NCBI RefSeq assembly: GCF_002078015.1
Contig: NZ_LWBP01000188.1
Coordinates: 372,001 to 436,000, forward strand
Direction of reading: 5' to 3'
Length of the DNA stretch: 64,000 nucleotides
From: Niastella populi
GTDB lineage: Bacteria > Bacteroidota > Bacteroidia > Chitinophagales > Chitinophagaceae
Positions 33,441-42,089 of the stretch are shown piece after piece. Below the pieces are notes generated by a model, which saw only the letters and a list, made by a program, of their open reading frames with translations, made no database searches and was not told the origin of the DNA. The position numbers and the translations under genes were made by a program. Numbering within the stretch: position 1 is the stretch's first letter; every line of letters starts with the position of its first letter.

Positions 33441-33472
33441 TTTGGAAATCTGACAAACCAGTGCTTACTTTG
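33441..33472 (+). promoter_or_regulatory. Promoter of the exosortase N operon
   Basis: TTTG at 33441-33444, 20-nt spacer, then TTACTTTG at 33465-33472 (7 of 8 to TAnnTTTG). The transcript would start near 33478, some 12 nt before the first ATG. The -7 box overlaps the palindrome at 33467-33483. Confidence 0.55.
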
Positions 33473-33491
33473 TTTTACAAAGTGCTTTTTA
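33467..33491 (+). promoter_or_regulatory. Palindromic operator-like element, copy 1
   Basis: ACTTTGT-TTT-ACAAAGT (33467-33483) followed by GCTTTTTA up to the start codon of the first gene. Copy 2 at 34464-34488 matches at 21 of 25 positions. It overlaps the -7 box and start point, a good place for a repressor. The winged-helix protein at 34142 is the obvious candidate to bind it; that is inference. Confidence 0.55.
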
Positions 33492-34126
33492 TGGATAGCC
33501 AACATCCCCCGCTGGAAACCCTGCAGGATATTAAACGAATGATGGAACGGTCGACCCGCTTTATTTCCCTTAGTGGATGGAGCGGTATCAGCGCCGGCGT
33601 TTGCGCCCTGGGGGGAGCATGGGCAGCCCACAGCCGTATCGACCGCTTCCTGCACCCGGCAGTTGGCCGTAATTATTATCATAGCGATGGCGGCGCTTTG
33701 TTGTTGAAAGACCTGATGCTGATAGCAGCCATTACGTTTGCCGCCGCATTCATTTCAGCCTTTATATTTACCTGGTCGCGCAGCCGCCGCAGCGGTACGC
33801 CCATGTGGGATACAACCGTGCAACGCCTTGCCTGGAACACCATATTACCGATGGTTGTTGGCGGCATAGTGCTTTTGCGCGCCATCGAATTGGGTTATTT
33901 TACGCTGATAGCACCCGGCTGTTTGATCTTTTACGGACTGGCACTGGTGAATGCATCGAAGTATACGTTGGGTGAAATACGGTATTTGGGTTACGGACAA
34001 CTGATACTCGGTATTATTAATTTGTGGGTAGTAGGCGGTGGTTTGTATTTTTGGGCCGCAGGTTTCGGCATTTTGCACATCCTTTATGGTGCAATAATGT
34101 GGTGGAAGTATGAACGGAAGAGCTAG
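33491..34126 (+). CDS. Membrane protein paired with a winged-helix regulator
   Basis: 211 aa from ATG at 33491, just downstream of the promoter; an earlier in-frame start would lie upstream of the predicted transcript start. A soluble N-terminus with LQDIKRMMERSTRFISLSGWSG precedes about five or six hydrophobic helices (near 38-56, 73-97, 122-140, 145-160 and 178-205). This N-terminal stretch is common to Bacteroidota membrane proteins encoded next to small winged-helix regulators. Function is not known; it could sense a membrane signal for the regulator 15 nt downstream. Confidence 0.7.
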   Translation: MDSQHPPLETLQDIKRMMERSTRFISLSGWSGISAGVCALGGAWAAHSRIDRFLHPAVGRNYYHSDGGALLLKDLMLIAAITFAAAFISAFIFTWSRSRRSGTPMWDTTVQRLAWNTILPMVVGGIVLLRAIELGYFTLIAPGCLIFYGLALVNASKYTLGEIRYLGYGQLILGIINLWVVGGGLYFWAAGFGILHILYGAIMWWKYERKS

Positions 34127-34141
34127 ATAATAATTTACAAC

Positions 34142-34441
34142 ATGAAGAACCCCATTGAAAATCTTAATAAAATTTTTGATAGCCGCATTCGCATGGGAGT
34201 AATGAGTATTCTTATTGTGAATGAGGAAGTGAGTTTTAATGACCTTAAAAAAATGCTCGATGTAACAGACGGCAACCTGGCATCGCACATGGTAAACCTT
34301 GAAGAAAATGGATATGTTAAGGTACATAAAGGATTTATTGGCCGTAAAACAAATACAACCTATTCAATCACCCGCGCCGGGGAAAAAGCTTTTAAAGATC
34401 ATATCGAGGCCCTGGAGGCAATGATCAAAGGCATGAAGTGA
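34142..34441 (+). CDS. Winged-helix transcriptional regulator
   Basis: 99 aa, entirely a winged-helix domain: FDSRIRMGVMSILIVNEEVSF then the recognition segment (LKKMLDVTDGNLASHMVNLEENGYV) and wing (VHKGFIGRKTNTTYSIT), as in the MarR/ArsR-like HTH_27 group; quoted in pieces. It lacks a ligand domain and probably dimerises through its terminal helices. Second gene of the exosortase N operon. The duplicated ACTTTG palindromes flanking it suggest autoregulation, which is inference. Confidence 0.9.
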   Translation: MKNPIENLNKIFDSRIRMGVMSILIVNEEVSFNDLKKMLDVTDGNLASHMVNLEENGYVKVHKGFIGRKTNTTYSITRAGEKAFKDHIEALEAMIKGMK

Positions 34442-34463
34442 GGCAAATTTTTTTTGCCCTTAC

Positions 34464-34488
34464 ACTTTGAAATACAAAGCGCTTTTTA
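34464..34488 (+). promoter_or_regulatory. Palindromic operator-like element, copy 2
   Basis: ACTTTG-AAATA-CAAAGC then GCTTTTTA, two bases before the ATG of the third gene. 21 of 25 bases equal copy 1; the differences are mainly the central TTT to AAA. No clear -33 box accompanies it, so it may act as an internal promoter/operator or at the RNA level. Confidence 0.5.
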
Positions 34489-34490
34489 GT

Positions 34491-34913
34491 ATGAGTAATA
34501 ACTTTTTGAAACAATTTAAACTGGCATGTAAGATCTGGCTGGTAGCCGTGATAGCCAATGCATTTCTGGCCGTTTCTTTCATGAGCATCATAAATGGTAA
34601 CTGGTATCCATGGCAGCAGTTGGGCCTGGTGCTATTGGTGGGCGGCATTTTTTCTATCCCCTGCATGATAGCAGTGCTTATTATAATTGCCCTAATGGCC
34701 AAACGGGTAAATGGCATGCGGTTGTTCTGGTCGGTAGCGGCAGGCGGGTTAACGGTTACGGTAATGGCATATACCACATTTATGAACCTGGTAGGCGGAA
34801 ACAACAGGGAATTGAAGTATCTCCTGTTAGCAGCCATACTGGCAGCAATGGTAAGTGTAACTACTTTTTACAGATCATTATTTAAATGGGGACGCGATTT
34901 TAATTCGATCTAA
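34491..34913 (+). CDS. Small inner-membrane protein
   Basis: 140 aa from ATG at 34491, directly after operator copy 2. Four hydrophobic segments (about 13-35, 42-65, 75-95 and 105-125). No family recognised. It has no catalytic-looking residues, and its placement between the regulator and the DUF4173-type protein is the only clue. A short 10-nt gap to the next gene implies co-transcription. Confidence 0.6.
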   Translation: MSNNFLKQFKLACKIWLVAVIANAFLAVSFMSIINGNWYPWQQLGLVLLVGGIFSIPCMIAVLIIIALMAKRVNGMRLFWSVAAGGLTVTVMAYTTFMNLVGGNNRELKYLLLAAILAAMVSVTTFYRSLFKWGRDFNSI

Positions 34914-34923
34914 AACTTTAGCT

Positions 34924-36543
34924 ATGAAAAACCCTTCACCTGAAATTAACCCAACTATGAATAAAGATATTTCAAAGGTCATTCTGGTAGCAGCCGGCGC
35001 TGTACTGTTCAACCTTGTCTTCTGGAACGAAAAACTGGCCATCAATACCGTGCTGTTCGATGCCTTCTTGTTATCGGCCCTTTTCTTTCTGTACCCCCGG
35101 GCCCGTAAACATGCTATCGTGAACTGGTTGCTGCTGGGTCATGTTGTGTGTTTGGCCATGGTAGTGGTGCACAATACCGGGTTGAGTAAAATTGCCTTTA
35201 CCATCACCCTGTTATTGCTGGCAGGTTTTGCCGGATATACACACCGGTCGGCCTGGTTTGCCGGCGGCTCGGTGCTGATGAATATTGTTATGGTAGCTGC
35301 TTCGTTTGTTGAGCCTATAAAACTGAGCAAAGGCCAGGCTGTTAAAGGCAAAGGTTTCAGCCGCATCATCCGCTTTGCTTTATTACCGTTGCTGTTGGTG
35401 ATCGTATTCTTTTGCATTTACCGCCTTGCCAACAACATGTTCTCTGAAATAGCAGGCCAGATAGAACTGCAGCTGGGAATATTCTTCAGCCATTTCTTCG
35501 ATTTCTTCTCATGGCAACGGCTGTTGTTCCTTTTGTTGGGGTTGCTTATTACAGGTTCTGTTTTACTAAAAAGCAAACTGAATTATTTCAGCACCCGCGA
35601 AGCCCGCATGCACGACGCATTGCTTCGGTGTAAAATACCATTGCGAAAGAAAAGAGAAGGCACTTCGTTCAGGTTTGTTGAAATGATCATGGGTAAAATG
35701 GCCAGCGGCACACTGGCGCTGAAGAATGAGAACACCACCGGTATCATAAGCCTGGTCTTATTGAACGTGTTGTTGCTGGGTGTGAACCTTATCGATATCA
35801 ATTTCCTTTGGTTGAATTTTCAGTACAAGGCAGGCGAACCGGTATACAAAATGGTGCATGAGGGAACGGAGCTGCTTATAGTTTCCATTGTACTGGCGAT
35901 GGCTATTTTACTGTTCTTCTTTAAAGGCAATCTCAATTTTTACAAACGGAACAGGTGGTTGAAGTATGGCGCCTATGCCTGGATCGCTCAAAATGGGTTG
36001 CTGGTTTGTTCTGTTTTGCTGCGCGATTATTATTACATTCTAAAACATGGCCTCGCTTACAAACGCATTGGGGTATTGTTCTTTTTGTTGATGGTGCTGG
36101 TGGGGTTGATAACCGTGTTTTTGAAAATATGGTCAAGGAAAACAAATTACTTCCTGTTCAGGGTAAATGCATGGGCCGGAATAACAGTGATGGTGCTGGC
36201 CACCACCATCCATTGGGATGAGTTCATTGCCGGATATAACCTGAAACGCAAGGATACCGTTGAGCTGGATGTTCCGTTTTTACTGTCGCTTTCCGATAAA
36301 GCGCTGCCATTGCTCGATACCAATATCGTGGTGCTGCAAAACCTTGAAAATAAATTGAAGACAGATGCCGAAAGGGTGGGTAACGTGTACGGATGCAACA
36401 GCTGTTTTACCGGACAGTTGAAGAACCGCGAAGCGGAATTTGTTCAAAAACAAAAGCAGTACTCCTGGTTATCGTGGAACTATGCTGATGCCATCACGAA
36501 AAGATATTTCGAAAAGAAAAAAACGATCGTCTCCACCCGCTAA
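34924..36543 (+). CDS. DUF4173/DUF4153-type polytopic membrane protein
   Basis: 539 aa; ATG at 34924, with an alternative ATG at 34957. About eleven to twelve hydrophobic helices over residues 15-425, then a soluble C-terminal region (LDVPFLLSLSDKALPLLD, NVYGCNSC). The pattern YAWIAQNGLLVCSVLLRDYYYI near 345-365 (quoted here as part) and the YNLKRKDTVELDVPFLLSLS-type end are typical of the DUF4153/4173 family. The CNSC motif near residue 487 is unusual. Role unknown; it belongs to the exosortase N operon by orientation and spacing. Confidence 0.75.
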   Translation: MKNPSPEINPTMNKDISKVILVAAGAVLFNLVFWNEKLAINTVLFDAFLLSALFFLYPRARKHAIVNWLLLGHVVCLAMVVVHNTGLSKIAFTITLLLLAGFAGYTHRSAWFAGGSVLMNIVMVAASFVEPIKLSKGQAVKGKGFSRIIRFALLPLLLVIVFFCIYRLANNMFSEIAGQIELQLGIFFSHFFDFFSWQRLLFLLLGLLITGSVLLKSKLNYFSTREARMHDALLRCKIPLRKKREGTSFRFVEMIMGKMASGTLALKNENTTGIISLVLLNVLLLGVNLIDINFLWLNFQYKAGEPVYKMVHEGTELLIVSIVLAMAILLFFFKGNLNFYKRNRWLKYGAYAWIAQNGLLVCSVLLRDYYYILKHGLAYKRIGVLFFLLMVLVGLITVFLKIWSRKTNYFLFRVNAWAGITVMVLATTIHWDEFIAGYNLKRKDTVELDVPFLLSLSDKALPLLDTNIVVLQNLENKLKTDAERVGNVYGCNSCFTGQLKNREAEFVQKQKQYSWLSWNYADAITKRYFEKKKTIVSTR

Positions 36544-36553
36544 ACAGCATCAT

Positions 36554-36967
36554 ATGACAACCATTTCGGCTTCCATTCATATATGGGTTAAAACAGCGCT
36601 GATCAATTTTTTATTGATGCTGCTGGGGGCAATAGTATCATTCAGGGGGGGCGATGTATTGTGGGCGTTTGTTACCCTGCTCGTAGGAATTATTGCAACG
36701 ATCCCATTGCTGGTGTTCATCAATCCAATTGTGGTATTGTCGAAAAGAATTACCCATTATGGCATTCCGGCGCGCATCGCCAGTCTTACTTTTCATCTTA
36801 TGCTAATGGTGTTGTTATTCTTTTTGCTGGCATCATTACTCTCAACGGAAACCTTATTTGTAAAGAACCCGGTGCTGGCAGATCATATGGCCTGTACAAT
36901 GGTAAGTTTAATGATAAGTGTATATATAAACCGGAGATCATTGAAAGCACTGTATGAAGAAAAGTAA
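36554..36967 (+). CDS. Small inner-membrane protein
   Basis: 137 aa from ATG at 36554 (MTTISASIHIWVKT); the frame extends upstream into the previous gene, so the internal ATG is chosen. Four hydrophobic segments (about 10-32, 35-58, 70-95 and 108-125) and short charged loops. Similar size and plan to the 140-aa protein at 34491, but no clear sequence relation was seen. No family recognised; 44 nt before the VIT-domain gene. Confidence 0.6.
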   Translation: MTTISASIHIWVKTALINFLLMLLGAIVSFRGGDVLWAFVTLLVGIIATIPLLVFINPIVVLSKRITHYGIPARIASLTFHLMLMVLLFFLLASLLSTETLFVKNPVLADHMACTMVSLMISVYINRRSLKALYEEK

Positions 36968-37011
36968 TTGAATCAGTTTGAACTGCATTACAAAACTATT
37001 AAAGCCATTTT

Positions 37012-39516
37012 ATGGACCATTTAACTGCCAATCAAAAAGATAAACAGTTTATAGAAGGATTGATCCTTATCCCGATCTCATTGTTCTTTTTTTGTTTACC
37101 GGTGTTTTTCACCTTGAATCATAGCAGCGGGTTGTTCGTGATTAATTATGCAATAGCGGTTATTTATTTTGTAATATTATTGGCAGGCAGGCGACTTAAG
37201 AAAGGCAGGGATGGATTGATGCCGCTTATTCTGTTTCTTATTTTATTTCTGATAAGCGCGTATTCCCTTAACCGCGAAATGACGGTATTTGAAAAGCCGG
37301 TGACCTGGTTTGCGGTTTTGCAGGTAATACTGTGTGTTAACTATATTGCATTTGCTTTTTTTAAACGTTTTCCGCGGTGGTTGCAATATGTGATGACCTT
37401 CCTGCTGGGTATAGCGCTGGTTACATTCTTATATCTCGCTATTTATCTCTTTCCCCTCTATATCCTGAGTGTTATGGCCTCGTTTGTGCTGGGGATCTCG
37501 GCTCACTCATTTGTCGGGCTGCTGTTTGTGATCTACACTATAGCGCTGTTAAGGAAAGTAGTAAAAGATAACCAGGCATTGTTCGTCAGTTTTTTAGGTG
37601 GGGCAGGGGCGTCGTTGGTTGTGGTCGTTGTATTTGTAGTTCGTTTTACCCTATTGACCAATGAAATTAACACAACGTACCGGCAGGCTACTGTGCGCGA
37701 AAATGAAGGATGGCCGGCCTGGGTATCACTGGCTCAAATGATACCTGATAACGGGCTTGCAGAGAGTATATTGAAAACCGATCTCGTTTACAGCACTCCT
37801 TCTGAAAGACTGGACAATTTATTTTGGTCGGTACCAACCAGAAATTTTGGTGAAGAGAAAAAGCACGACCCACTGATCATGATCGCTGCGCTTTTTTCGG
37901 GCAACATACATTTGTCGGAGGCAAACCGCATAAAGCTGCTGGAGTCGATGCACGATTCGCGGCACCAGGCGCAGGACCGTTTATGGTCGGGTGACGATCT
38001 GTTGACCGGGCACATAAACACCGATGTTAAAATATGGCCGCAGTTTGGTATCTCTTATACCGAAAAAGTGATCACCGTTTCAAATATGGCGCCTGCCGAC
38101 AGGTGGAGCGGAAGCCAGGAAGAAGCGATCTATACCTTTCACTTACCCGAAGGCGGGGTGGTAACGGCCTTGTCGTTATGGATAGAAGGCAAAGAAGCCA
38201 AAAGCATCTTGACCACCAAACAAAAAGCCGATTCAGCCTATAAGCAGATCGTTGGCGCCGAACGTCGCGACCCGTCTGTATTACACTGGCAGGAAGGCAA
38301 TACTATATCGGTGCGGGTGTTTCCGGTACTGGCGGGCGAAAGCAGGAAATTTAAAGTAGGCATAACCGCCCCGCTCACGCGAAAGAATGGCCGAATGAAA
38401 TATGAGAATATCTGGTTCGACGGGCCCTCCTTTTCCCGTGCAAAGGAGGAAATTGCTTTACAGTTTCAGCAAACACCAAAAGACTTCATTTCCCCCGCAG
38501 TATTTAAGCCAACCGGCCGTATGGGTTTTACACGCTCAGGAAAATATGATCCTTCCTGGGATATAGAACTGGCCGATCAGCCATTGAGTAACGATGCGTT
38601 TTGCTTTGATGGCAAAAGGTATAATGTTCGCCCATACGCCAAACAGTTTGGTCCGGCTGTTTTACAAAACGTTTATCTGGATGTTAACAAAACCTGGACG
38701 AAGCAGGAGTTCACCAGCATTTGTGAAGTGTTGAAACACCATAAGGTATTTGTATACACCAATGCAATGGTAGAGGTGACCGGTGAAAACAGGCAGGCGG
38801 TTTTTGCTGAGTTGCATAAACTTCAGTTCAGCTTATTTCCGGTTTATTTAATTGGGAACGCGAACAATTCCCTGCTTGTAAGTAAAAGCCCTGCTGTTTC
38901 ACCCAACTTAAAAGACCTGGCCGGAAGCGATTTTCTGAAGGAGGTTAAGAAGTCGATGCGGGGTGGAAAAAAGCTGAAGCTGTTCAACCTGGGCACCACG
39001 TTGAGCCCCTATTTGAAAACGTTGAAAGAATACCGGGCCTTTCAGTATGAACACGGCTCGGTCGATAACCTGAAAATATTGCTGAACAAACAGGTGTTTG
39101 TAAAGGATGGTGAGAACGAAAAACAGGTAGTTATCGATAACGCAGAGATCGCCATTGTAGAAGATAGTTGTACAGTGGCATCTGCGGCTCCTGATCATTT
39201 AATGCGATTGTTTGCCTACAACCATATTATGCAAAAAATGGGTACCCGTTTTTCAGATGAAGTGCAGGAGACAGATGAGCTTGTTGCAGATGCGCAGAAA
39301 GCGTATGTGGTAAGCCCCGTATCGAGCATGGTGGTGTTGGAAACAACAAAAGATTACGAACGATTTAATATTAAGGACAGTCAGAACAGTTTGAAAAATG
39401 CCTCCATGAAATCAAAGGGCGCCGTGCCCGAACCGCATGAATGGGCATTGATCATCCTTGCCGGTGTTGTGTTGTTGTATATTAAGTTTCATCCCGTTAA
39501 AAAGAAAGCATTATAA
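37012..39516 (+). CDS. VIT-domain protein of the exosortase N system with PEP-CTERM-like tail
   Basis: 834 aa. Seven or so transmembrane helices in residues 15-212, then a VIT domain (about 345-457, with YTFHLPEGGVVTALSLW and the hallmark RRDPSVLHW). A further soluble region (about 560-760) may be a degenerate VWA. The end is a classic sorting signal: VPEP (805-808), HEWALIILAGVVLLYI hydrophobic helix, then basic residues KFHPVKKK. That is the PEP-CTERM layout read by exosortases, and the xrtN gene overlaps the stop by 1 nt (TAATG). The protein is therefore both substrate and dedicated partner of the exosortase. Biological role unknown. Confidence 0.88.
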   Translation: MDHLTANQKDKQFIEGLILIPISLFFFCLPVFFTLNHSSGLFVINYAIAVIYFVILLAGRRLKKGRDGLMPLILFLILFLISAYSLNREMTVFEKPVTWFAVLQVILCVNYIAFAFFKRFPRWLQYVMTFLLGIALVTFLYLAIYLFPLYILSVMASFVLGISAHSFVGLLFVIYTIALLRKVVKDNQALFVSFLGGAGASLVVVVVFVVRFTLLTNEINTTYRQATVRENEGWPAWVSLAQMIPDNGLAESILKTDLVYSTPSERLDNLFWSVPTRNFGEEKKHDPLIMIAALFSGNIHLSEANRIKLLESMHDSRHQAQDRLWSGDDLLTGHINTDVKIWPQFGISYTEKVITVSNMAPADRWSGSQEEAIYTFHLPEGGVVTALSLWIEGKEAKSILTTKQKADSAYKQIVGAERRDPSVLHWQEGNTISVRVFPVLAGESRKFKVGITAPLTRKNGRMKYENIWFDGPSFSRAKEEIALQFQQTPKDFISPAVFKPTGRMGFTRSGKYDPSWDIELADQPLSNDAFCFDGKRYNVRPYAKQFGPAVLQNVYLDVNKTWTKQEFTSICEVLKHHKVFVYTNAMVEVTGENRQAVFAELHKLQFSLFPVYLIGNANNSLLVSKSPAVSPNLKDLAGSDFLKEVKKSMRGGKKLKLFNLGTTLSPYLKTLKEYRAFQYEHGSVDNLKILLNKQVFVKDGENEKQVVIDNAEIAIVEDSCTVASAAPDHLMRLFAYNHIMQKMGTRFSDEVQETDELVADAQKAYVVSPVSSMVVLETTKDYERFNIKDSQNSLKNASMKSKGAVPEPHEWALIILAGVVLLYIKFHPVKKKAL

Positions 39517-40871
39517 TGATACAGGCATTATCACTGCCGGTTAAAATGGCAAAGCCGCAACGAATGGCCCTGGGTTTATACCTGGTGTATGCCGTTATCA
39601 TGCTGTTATCGCTTCGTACCTATGTGCTGTGGCAGTCGGTAAACGTTGTTTTGGGATTGCTGGCATTGCCCCTTGTTACCACCATTCAACCGGGTAATAA
39701 TAAAAACATCAGGTACGGCTCTGTTGCTGCGTTGTTTGCCATATTAGCGGTGTTACTGCCCGTAAAAACATTGTTGTATTTCTCCATTGCCTTTGCCTGT
39801 TTTTTTGTTACCGAAAACTTCCTGGGTAAAATAAATCTGTTGCCGGTAGGTGTGGTATGCCTTATGTCGCCTGTATCTCAGTTTACGGCAAATGTGTTCA
39901 GCGTTCCTATCCGATTACAGCTTACAAAATGGGCCGGCGCTATCATGAACCTGGCACAGGGCGGTATAACCGTAAAAGGGAATATGATCATCAGTAATAA
40001 CAATGAGTTTTCGGTTGATCCCGCCTGCATGGGTTTGAATATGATGGTGATTTCCCTGTTGCTGCAGTTGATCATAATTGCCATGTATCAACGCAAACAC
40101 AAACTGTATGTGGGCGGTTGGCAGGTGGCTGGTTTGCTTACGGTTTCATTTGTATTGAATGTGGTAAGTAATCTGTTCCGGATTATTTGTCTGGTATGGT
40201 TCAATATTTTGCCTGATGCGCCATTGCATGAGCTGGCCGGCATATTTTGCCTGTTGTTGTATGTTATAATACCCATGGTTTGGTTAACGCAGCTGGTAAT
40301 AAAACATAAAGGGCGGCCCGAAGTAGTAACTACAGATAAAACCCCTGTGTTATGGAATAGTGTTTTTCTGATACACGTCGCATTGTACCTGATCATTTGC
40401 CTGGCGGCTTACAGGGGCGTATTAATCGAGAAGTCCATGGCCGAACCTGCGGCTGCAATAGAAACGGTAGACGGCTATAAGGCTGAACGCGTAACAACGG
40501 AGATCGTCAAGCTGGAGAATAGCCGGTCGCTTGTATATCTGAAATATATTCCCGGTTTCTTTAGCGCCGATCATCATCCAATGATCTGCTGGAATGGAAG
40601 CGGATATATTTTCACGAAGGTGCAGTTGGAGGTTGTTGGCGGGCAACAGGTATATACAGCCCTGTTACAAAATGGCAAAGATCAGTTATATACCGGTTGG
40701 TGGTACGATAATGGCACTGAACGCACTGTTGAACAATTAAGCTGGCGGCATAAGATGCTTACCGGCAGCAGGGCGTTTTCGGTGGTGAACGTAACAACAG
40801 GAAGTAAACAACAGTTGATCAACGAAATAGAAGGCATAATTCGAAGTAACAGATTAAAGCCTTTGTTGTAG
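39516..40871 (+). CDS. xrtN: Exosortase N with fused EpsI-like C-terminal domain
   Basis: 451 aa. Polytopic exosortase core (about 15-265) with the catalytic triad Cys171 (DPACMGLNMM), Arg222 (NLFRIICLV) and His238 (PLHELAGI). After a last helix near 290-305 comes a soluble periplasmic domain (about 315-445; ICWNGSGY, GWWYDNGTERTVEQLSWR) resembling the EpsI/DUF3485 proteins that are separate or fused partners in other exosortase systems. Exosortases cleave PEP-CTERM tails and pass the protein on for surface attachment. Start overlaps the VIT gene stop, implying coupled translation. Confidence 0.92.
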   Translation: MIQALSLPVKMAKPQRMALGLYLVYAVIMLLSLRTYVLWQSVNVVLGLLALPLVTTIQPGNNKNIRYGSVAALFAILAVLLPVKTLLYFSIAFACFFVTENFLGKINLLPVGVVCLMSPVSQFTANVFSVPIRLQLTKWAGAIMNLAQGGITVKGNMIISNNNEFSVDPACMGLNMMVISLLLQLIIIAMYQRKHKLYVGGWQVAGLLTVSFVLNVVSNLFRIICLVWFNILPDAPLHELAGIFCLLLYVIIPMVWLTQLVIKHKGRPEVVTTDKTPVLWNSVFLIHVALYLIICLAAYRGVLIEKSMAEPAAAIETVDGYKAERVTTEIVKLENSRSLVYLKYIPGFFSADHHPMICWNGSGYIFTKVQLEVVGGQQVYTALLQNGKDQLYTGWWYDNGTERTVEQLSWRHKMLTGSRAFSVVNVTTGSKQQLINEIEGIIRSNRLKPLL

Positions 40872-40916
40872 TAAATTTAGTAAAGCAACAATATTCGATT
40901 TTACAAAAACAAGTAT

Positions 40917-41285
40917 ATGAAGTCACAGGGGTTTTCATTCAGGTCGAGGTTAAAAAGCTTCCGGTTTGCCATGGAAGGCATTTCGAGGTTTTTTCTTGCA
41001 GAACACAATGCCTGGCTGCATTTGATTGCAACGATAGTGGTATTTGTTCTTGCAGCGGTGGTAGGCGTTACCAAAAATGAACTGCTTGCATTGGTATTCG
41101 CCATTGGGTTTGTATGGGTGGCTGAAATGTTCAATACCTGTATAGAGCGGGTAATGGATTTTGTTTCAAACCAACGGAATTCAGATATAAAATTTATTAA
41201 AGACCTGGCTGCCGGCGCTGTATTGACGGCCGCTTTAACTGCCCTGGCAGTAGGTGCTGTAGTGTTCATACCTAAATTATTTTAA
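40917..41285 (+). CDS. dgkA: DgkA-type diacylglycerol/undecaprenol kinase
   Basis: 122 aa. Three transmembrane helices, the AEHNAWLH segment, and the family motif EMFNTCIERVMD (about 62-73), with KDLAAGAV near 94-101. This small membrane kinase phosphorylates diacylglycerol or undecaprenol to recycle lipid carriers. 45 nt after xrtN on the same strand. Given that exosortase targets are attached to surface lipid or polysaccharide in other bacteria, a lipid-carrier role in the system is possible but unproven. Confidence 0.92.
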   Translation: MKSQGFSFRSRLKSFRFAMEGISRFFLAEHNAWLHLIATIVVFVLAAVVGVTKNELLALVFAIGFVWVAEMFNTCIERVMDFVSNQRNSDIKFIKDLAAGAVLTAALTALAVGAVVFIPKLF

Positions 41286-41387
41286 CAATGAAACGTCCAG
41301 GGCGAAATGTTCATTAAAACACACCATGTTATGAAAAATTTGCTGTGGTAAGTTCACCCTGGCCAAAACCCGATAAATATTTTTCAG

Positions 41388-42089
41388 ATGAAATATGCAC
41401 AACCGAAGGAGATCGAAAAGCCATTGGCGTTAAATCGCATAACCTTATTCAACAATGAAATTGACCGCATTCTTACCATTTCAATGGGTTTTAGCATTGC
41501 CCTGGTGATGGCGCGGGTAGCATACACCGGTAAATTCACGTTTGCCTGGCTAATATGGAATCTCTTCCTGGCCTGGTGCCCCTATGTGATCTCATCATGG
41601 CTGAAACAAAGGCCTGCTGTGCAGGCCGGCAGAATTAAGTTTGCTGTTATTTCCATATTATGGTTGTTGTTCATTCCGAATTCATTTTACATACTTACCG
41701 ATCTTTTTCACCTCGGTAAATTTAACAATGTACCCAACTGGTTCGATCTGGCGCTGATCATTTCATTTGCCTGGAACGGGTTATTGATGGGGATTCTGTC
41801 GGTACGGCAAATGGAGAAAATAGTGCAGCCGTATTTACGGGGCAAACATGAGTTGTTTTTCATTTATCCCATCATGTGGTTGAATGCATTGGGCGTTTAT
41901 ATTGGACGTTACCCGCGGTTCAACAGCTGGGATATCGTTACCAATCCCTTTAAACTTTTCACCTATCTGACAGAACTGATATTCCATCCTGTACAATGGA
42001 AATATGCATGGGGCATGGTGCTTTGTTTTTCGGTATTCATGACGCTCGTATACCTTGCTATAAAAAGATTGAGCAAAGCTATTCATTAA
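41388..42089 (+). CDS. DUF1361 membrane protein
   Basis: 233 aa with about six to seven hydrophobic helices. The LWLLFIPNSFYILTDLFHL segment (about 85-105) and NALGVYIGRYPRFNSWD (about 165-181) are the DUF1361 hallmark blocks. Inner membrane; function not established. Last gene of the operon: a terminator follows at 42139. There is a 102-nt gap after dgkA with no visible promoter. Confidence 0.85.
   Translation: MKYAQPKEIEKPLALNRITLFNNEIDRILTISMGFSIALVMARVAYTGKFTFAWLIWNLFLAWCPYVISSWLKQRPAVQAGRIKFAVISILWLLFIPNSFYILTDLFHLGKFNNVPNWFDLALIISFAWNGLLMGILSVRQMEKIVQPYLRGKHELFFIYPIMWLNALGVYIGRYPRFNSWDIVTNPFKLFTYLTELIFHPVQWKYAWGMVLCFSVFMTLVYLAIKRLSKAIH

Follow-up and report, generated by a model that had tools for sequence, protein, structure and literature searches.

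In the exosortase A/EpsH systems, one enzyme serves many PEP-CTERM targets, which are mostly encoded in single-gene operons and nearly all of which lack helices between signal peptide and tail, and a fusion of EpsH and EpsI has been described (PMC1569441). Substrates of exosortases, archaeosortases and rhombosortases seem to stay anchored, possibly bearing a new moiety where they were cut (PMC11980579), and in the archaeosortase ArtA the residues Cys173, Arg214 and Arg253 are critical (PMC9263693). In Flavobacterium johnsoniae, xrtF and the gene for the exosortase F system-associated protein are consecutively numbered, and mutants deleted for either one colonise sand less and form less biofilm (PMC10936215). 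NCBIfam further lists MSEP-CTERM proteins (TIGR04286) with exosortase K (XrtK, TIGR04287), and a VIT-domain protein named "sorted_by_XrtN" (TIGR04477) with exosortase N (XrtN, TIGR04476). Here we analyse a gene pair at positions 37,012 to 40,871 of a 64,000-nucleotide stretch of the Niastella populi genome (contig NZ_LWBP01000188.1, hereafter the window), which encodes a VIT-domain protein followed by an exosortase. The pair is an ordinary instance of the XrtN system already named in NCBIfam, and we consider it likely to form a two-gene system of one enzyme and one substrate.

Both proteins match their NCBIfam families at near full length (hmmscan). The VIT protein scores 953 bits against TIGR04477, where the cut-off is 250, over profile positions 4-817 of 822, and the exosortase scores 369 bits against TIGR04476, where it is 200, over positions 6-405 of 406. 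With the genes adjacent and the tail present, we found no difference from the catalogued system. Since the name of TIGR04477 itself states sorting by XrtN, the initial annotation correctly rediscovered a pair that was already catalogued; what is added here is the joint presence of the two genes, their adjacency, their joint absence where the flanks are kept, the invariance of the tail, and the single tail and exosortase in the genome. In the open-licence literature we found no paper on the XrtN/VIT pair or on its role for the cell, and among open-licence exosortase papers with Bacteroidetes none that mentions "VIT domain" and none that joins PEP-CTERM with it. The family was compared over 24 loci, which comprise 20 distinct genomes from a phylum and a family sample (window included) and four named records from a protein search (two Niastella, one Chitinophaga and one [Flexibacter]). 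The features of the pair are as follows, fractions referring to these loci:

37012..39516, + strand: XrtN-system VIT-domain protein, 834 amino acids (TIGR04477, E 1.3e-286, 953 bits; Pfam VIT PF08487, E 8.3e-12).
37060..37641, + strand: seven predicted N-terminal transmembrane helices, about residues 17-210 (hydropathy scan; low-confidence model; 13 Lys/Arg inside versus 4 outside).
38113..38358, + strand: VIT domain core, residues 368-449, within the best-conserved stretch of the protein (Pfam and alignment).
39424..39435, + strand: VPEP motif, residues 805-808 (V 23/24, P 24/24, E 24/24, P 24/24), with W811 (24/24) following.
39442..39483, + strand: C-terminal hydrophobic stretch, about residues 811-824 as read from the sequence (811-829 in the hydropathy scan).
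39484..39513, + strand: basic end, residues 825-834, KFHPVKKKAL, predicted cytoplasmic (sequence reading and family composition).
39516..40871, + strand: exosortase N (XrtN), 451 amino acids, its start overlapping the VIT stop by 1 nucleotide (TIGR04476, E 3.3e-110, 369 bits; Pfam Exosortase_EpsH, E 4e-13).
40026..40028, + strand: candidate catalytic Cys171 of XrtN, in DPACMGL (conserved 24/24).
40179..40181, + strand: candidate catalytic Arg222 of XrtN (conserved 24/24).
40227..40229, + strand: candidate catalytic His238 of XrtN (conserved 24/24).
40473..40790, + strand: C-terminal, possibly EpsI-like domain of XrtN, with H353-x-P355-xx-C358-W359 and WWY at 395-397 (conserved columns).

The initial annotation of this locus had read the C-terminus of the VIT protein as VPEP at residues 805-808 followed by a hydrophobic helix and then a basic end, and the homologues bear this out. 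P806, E807, P808 and W811 are invariant in the alignment and V805 is replaced in a single protein; the majority sequence of the 24 tails is GAVPEPHEWALII. Acidic residues are absent from the last 12 positions in all 24 tails, and 23 carry at least three Lys or Arg there. The hydrophobic stretch itself is short relative to the 19-residue window of the hydropathy scan. Judged by this conservation, the succession of motif, helix and basic end is beyond chance, and the tail shares the PEP-CTERM layout yet falls outside the Pfam model PF07589.

The two genes occur together. Four of the 296 genomes of the phylum sample exceed the TIGR04477 cut-off and the same four exceed that of TIGR04476, while in the family sample an identical set of 17 genomes out of 195 exceeds both. 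At E 0.001 or better, matches are more widespread, with TIGR04477 found in 59 of 296 and 35 of 195 genomes (mostly the VIT domain alone) and TIGR04476 in 25 of 296 and 17 of 195. In a second family, searched with TIGR04477 and not for XrtN, 1 of 149 genomes lies over the cut-off. At all 24 loci the VIT gene and xrtN are adjacent and co-directional. The 1-nucleotide overlap noted at the outset for the window is real (TAATG) and recurs in the family to the extent of 2 of 24 loci in all; seven junctions overlap by 4 nucleotides and the others range from longer apparent overlaps to a gap of up to 56 nucleotides, all measured with the longest open reading frame starts. No flanking gene cluster is common to more than 8 of the 24 loci. 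In the window the pair lies within a block (33461-42089) that also contains the genes for a 221-amino-acid membrane protein (g221), an HTH_34 regulator, DUF4153, a small membrane protein, DAGK and DUF1361. The same flanking genes stand in this order in two genomes of the genus drawn that are without the pair (G358 and G436), where the stretch has no match to VIT or XrtN, nor, in G358, to the window's 148-amino-acid gene. At two further loci (L063 and L135) the pair is placed before DUF4153 and not after it. Because both genes are missing together where the flanks are kept, and shifted together elsewhere, the VIT gene and xrtN come and go as a unit.

If the VIT protein were the only substrate, the genome should hold no other tail of this kind, as had been predicted beforehand. 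A profile built from the 24 tails (window's included) was searched against the 8.6-Mb genome and recovered the VIT tail at E 1.8e-25, with the next match at 0.43. In a leave-one-out test, a profile of 23 tails was run against the open reading frames of the locus whose tail had been omitted; all 24 tails were recovered (database size set to 100,000, E-values between 3.2e-23 and 1.3e-14), which shows the search to be sensitive to tails of this kind. A scan of DNA patterns, which took frames of 60 amino acids or more, covered all 39 PEPxxW-coding places and 100 of the 158 VPEP-coding places (a reversed-pattern control gave 45), and the VIT tail again had the top score. The three next-best tails (L215, L292 and L218) were rejected, as each lies antisense to a longer open frame, of 872, at least 203 and at least 623 codons, respectively. 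The Pfam PEP-CTERM model (PF07589) gave nothing over cut-off in the genome, which says little because the same model also misses the VIT tail. With one exosortase found by PF09721, the genome contains a single tail of this kind and a single exosortase. Together with the joint presence and absence of the genes, this supports the proposal that the VIT protein is a dedicated substrate of XrtN, an idea already contained in NCBIfam.

The initial annotation had considered it odd that a polytopic protein should carry a sorting tail, but a precedent exists. From a longer list of weaker VIT matches we chose 14 and fetched the regions around them. In five of these, an exosortase of 166-197 amino acids is encoded beside a VIT protein that is polytopic and ends in an MSEP-helix-basic tail; these are MSEP-CTERM/exosortase K pairs, all ten proteins being over their NCBIfam cut-offs. 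The VIT proteins of the other nine regions lack a tail of this kind and have a single helix or none. The five pairs resemble that of the window in the polytopic N-terminus, the VIT domain, the motif-helix-basic tail and an overlapping exosortase gene (5/5, with longest open reading frame starts). They differ in having nine or ten N-terminal helices and MSEP instead of VPEP, and in an upstream XrtK gene whose product is not long enough to include the additional C-terminal domain of XrtN. The two types of VIT protein are related, since hhalign aligns them with a probability of 99.5% over 640 columns; the window's protein scores 54.2 bits against TIGR04286, where the cut-off is 150, and is thus related to MSEP-CTERM without being a member. 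For the enzymes, hmmscan matches the XrtN model to two of the five XrtK and, at E 2.9e-5, the XrtK model to the window's XrtN, while a profile of the 24 XrtN matches four of the five XrtK at E 0.0031 or better and the fifth at 0.46. With the exosortase A/EpsH systems the pair shares the enzyme family (PF09721) and the PEP-helix-basic tail, but it has one target, encoded in the same operon. XrtF of Flavobacterium johnsoniae belongs to a different exosortase family from XrtN, and has, like the window's enzyme, its partner as a genome neighbour.

The seven N-terminal helices proposed for the VIT protein were recovered by the hydropathy scan, which adds one helix at the C-terminus, and the AlphaFold model has the same seven plus one, at low confidence (mean predicted local distance difference test, pLDDT, 45). 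Structure predictions of both proteins were built on the window and four loci (L062-L065). Across the family, 19 of 24 proteins show seven N-terminal helices and the other five show five or six. The loops predicted to be cytoplasmic contain 13 Lys/Arg and those predicted to be periplasmic 4, in a positive-inside count. Given an N-terminus inside and seven helices, the prediction is a periplasmic VIT domain and PEP motif and a cytoplasmic basic end, the orientation required of an exosortase tail. A PDB sequence search with the VIT protein gave no match. Outside any Pfam domain, residues 555-563 (38674-38700) hold an L-D-x-N-xx-W pattern that is invariant in 24/24 and could possibly be a worn-down metal site. 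The pattern suggested a vWA domain after the VIT domain, a candidate we rejected when Pfam scans of residues 540-728 and of the matching stretch in four homologues found none (5/5).

XrtN is over the cut-offs of PF09721 and TIGR04178 (exosortase/archaeosortase family), and its N-terminal 300 residues have 5-9 predicted helices across the 24 homologues (hydropathy scan). C171, R222 and H238 are putative catalytic residues, candidates by comparison with the set of ArtA, from which they differ in a His in place of the Arg at the third position.

We propose that the VIT protein is an inner-membrane protein whose N-terminus faces the cytoplasm and whose seven helices place the large VIT-containing part in the periplasm, and that the chain would return through an eighth helix to the basic cytoplasmic end. 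XrtN would be an exosortase of the Cys-Arg-His type, integral to the membrane and extended by a further C-terminal domain that is probably EpsI-like; it most likely cuts the tail near GAVPEPxEW on the periplasmic side, and it may then pass the new C-terminus on to a lipid or glycan acceptor. Such a cut would free or re-tether the periplasmic domain and change the C-terminus, and it would not release the VIT protein, because the seven N-terminal helices still hold it. More specifically, the exosortase might serve to re-tether or switch the periplasmic VIT domain, its C-terminus being joined to an envelope lipid or glycan and the protein thus anchored at both ends; we offer this as a tentative suggestion that may well prove wrong. 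The analogy with xrtF and the gene beside it in Flavobacterium johnsoniae points to a possible role in colonising surfaces.

These features could also be explained without any cleavage, if the C-terminal helix served only to anchor the protein in the membrane an eighth time and the VIT protein formed a complex with XrtN. The seven predicted helices already hold the protein, so that a sorting tail is not needed for its placement, and cleavage by XrtN is, as far as we found, inferred only. We nevertheless regard this explanation as unlikely, for an anchor would have no need of the invariant PEPxxW before the helix or of an end free of acidic residues in 24/24, which have the look of an exosortase tail; moreover, half of the family lacks a strongly hydrophobic stretch there (19-residue scan), and XrtN keeps its putative catalytic residues without exception. 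Less probable still is that XrtN handles several proteins and that the VIT protein is just the one encoded beside it. Other PEP-CTERM systems do serve many targets (PMC1569441), and VPEP is commoner in the genome than its reversed control, the scan having covered 100 of the 158 VPEP-coding places. Against this, the tail profile has no second match below E 0.43, the places scanned yielded as runners-up only the three antisense tails, and the Pfam PEP-CTERM model found nothing over cut-off, this last point being weak since it missed the VIT tail too. As for a coincidental resemblance of the tail, short motifs do arise by chance and 158 VPEP-coding sequences exist in the genome, but the tail is invariant over 24 proteins, of which the most distant is 32% identical to the window's (best segment), and its association with XrtN is complete; on these alignments coincidence seems hardly credible and effectively refuted.

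Several points weigh against the one-enzyme, one-substrate system that we favour. Joint gain and loss fits a closed two-gene system, but linkage alone could also give it, and joint occurrence is no proof of an enzyme-substrate relation because neighbouring genes are inherited together. The case for a single tail rests on sequence likeness, so that a quite different tail would escape, as could one in the VPEP-coding places beyond the 100 scanned. In a 19-residue scan, no more than 12 of 24 family members have a C-terminal helix above the hydropathy threshold, and even at E up to 10 the three matches of Pfam PEP-CTERM (PF07589) in the genome do not include the VIT tail. No experiment on XrtN was found in the open-licence literature. 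Finally, the XrtN frame is interrupted by TGA in one genome (G381). In this genome (L128/L131, G381:C868), XrtN is split by the TGA or a frame change into a frame of 364 amino acids and an 82-amino-acid piece while the VIT frame is open, which could be an assembly error or decay.

The value of the pair lies in its being a simple test system and not in a discovery, since the pairing was already named in NCBIfam. The function of exosortases in Bacteroidota is most simply approached where one enzyme has one substrate, and an answer would also bear on the XrtK/MSEP-CTERM family, because the same layout recurs there.

The C-terminal third of XrtN has invariant residues of its own (H353, P355, C358 and W359). 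EpsI may share this H-x-P-xx-C pattern. When eight of the 24 C-termini were scanned alone, weak matches appeared to DUF3485 in three (best E 0.018), to the XrtO model in four (6.9e-5), to the XrtD model in six (0.0074) and to EpsI type B in two (0.068), and the C-terminus of the window's own XrtN matches none of these four models. An EpsI-like domain is therefore a likely candidate here, on matches that are weak and confined to some members. The AlphaFold model of XrtN has a mean pLDDT of 58, which like that of the VIT protein is too low to support a search by fold, and a PDB sequence search with XrtN returned one match at chance level (E 0.65). In another family of the phylum (f17, loci L036-L061) we observed exosortase-like frames of 275-381 amino acids with weak XrtN matches, and in one genome of that family (G090) a separate frame of 360 amino acids just downstream matches the C-terminal part of XrtN.

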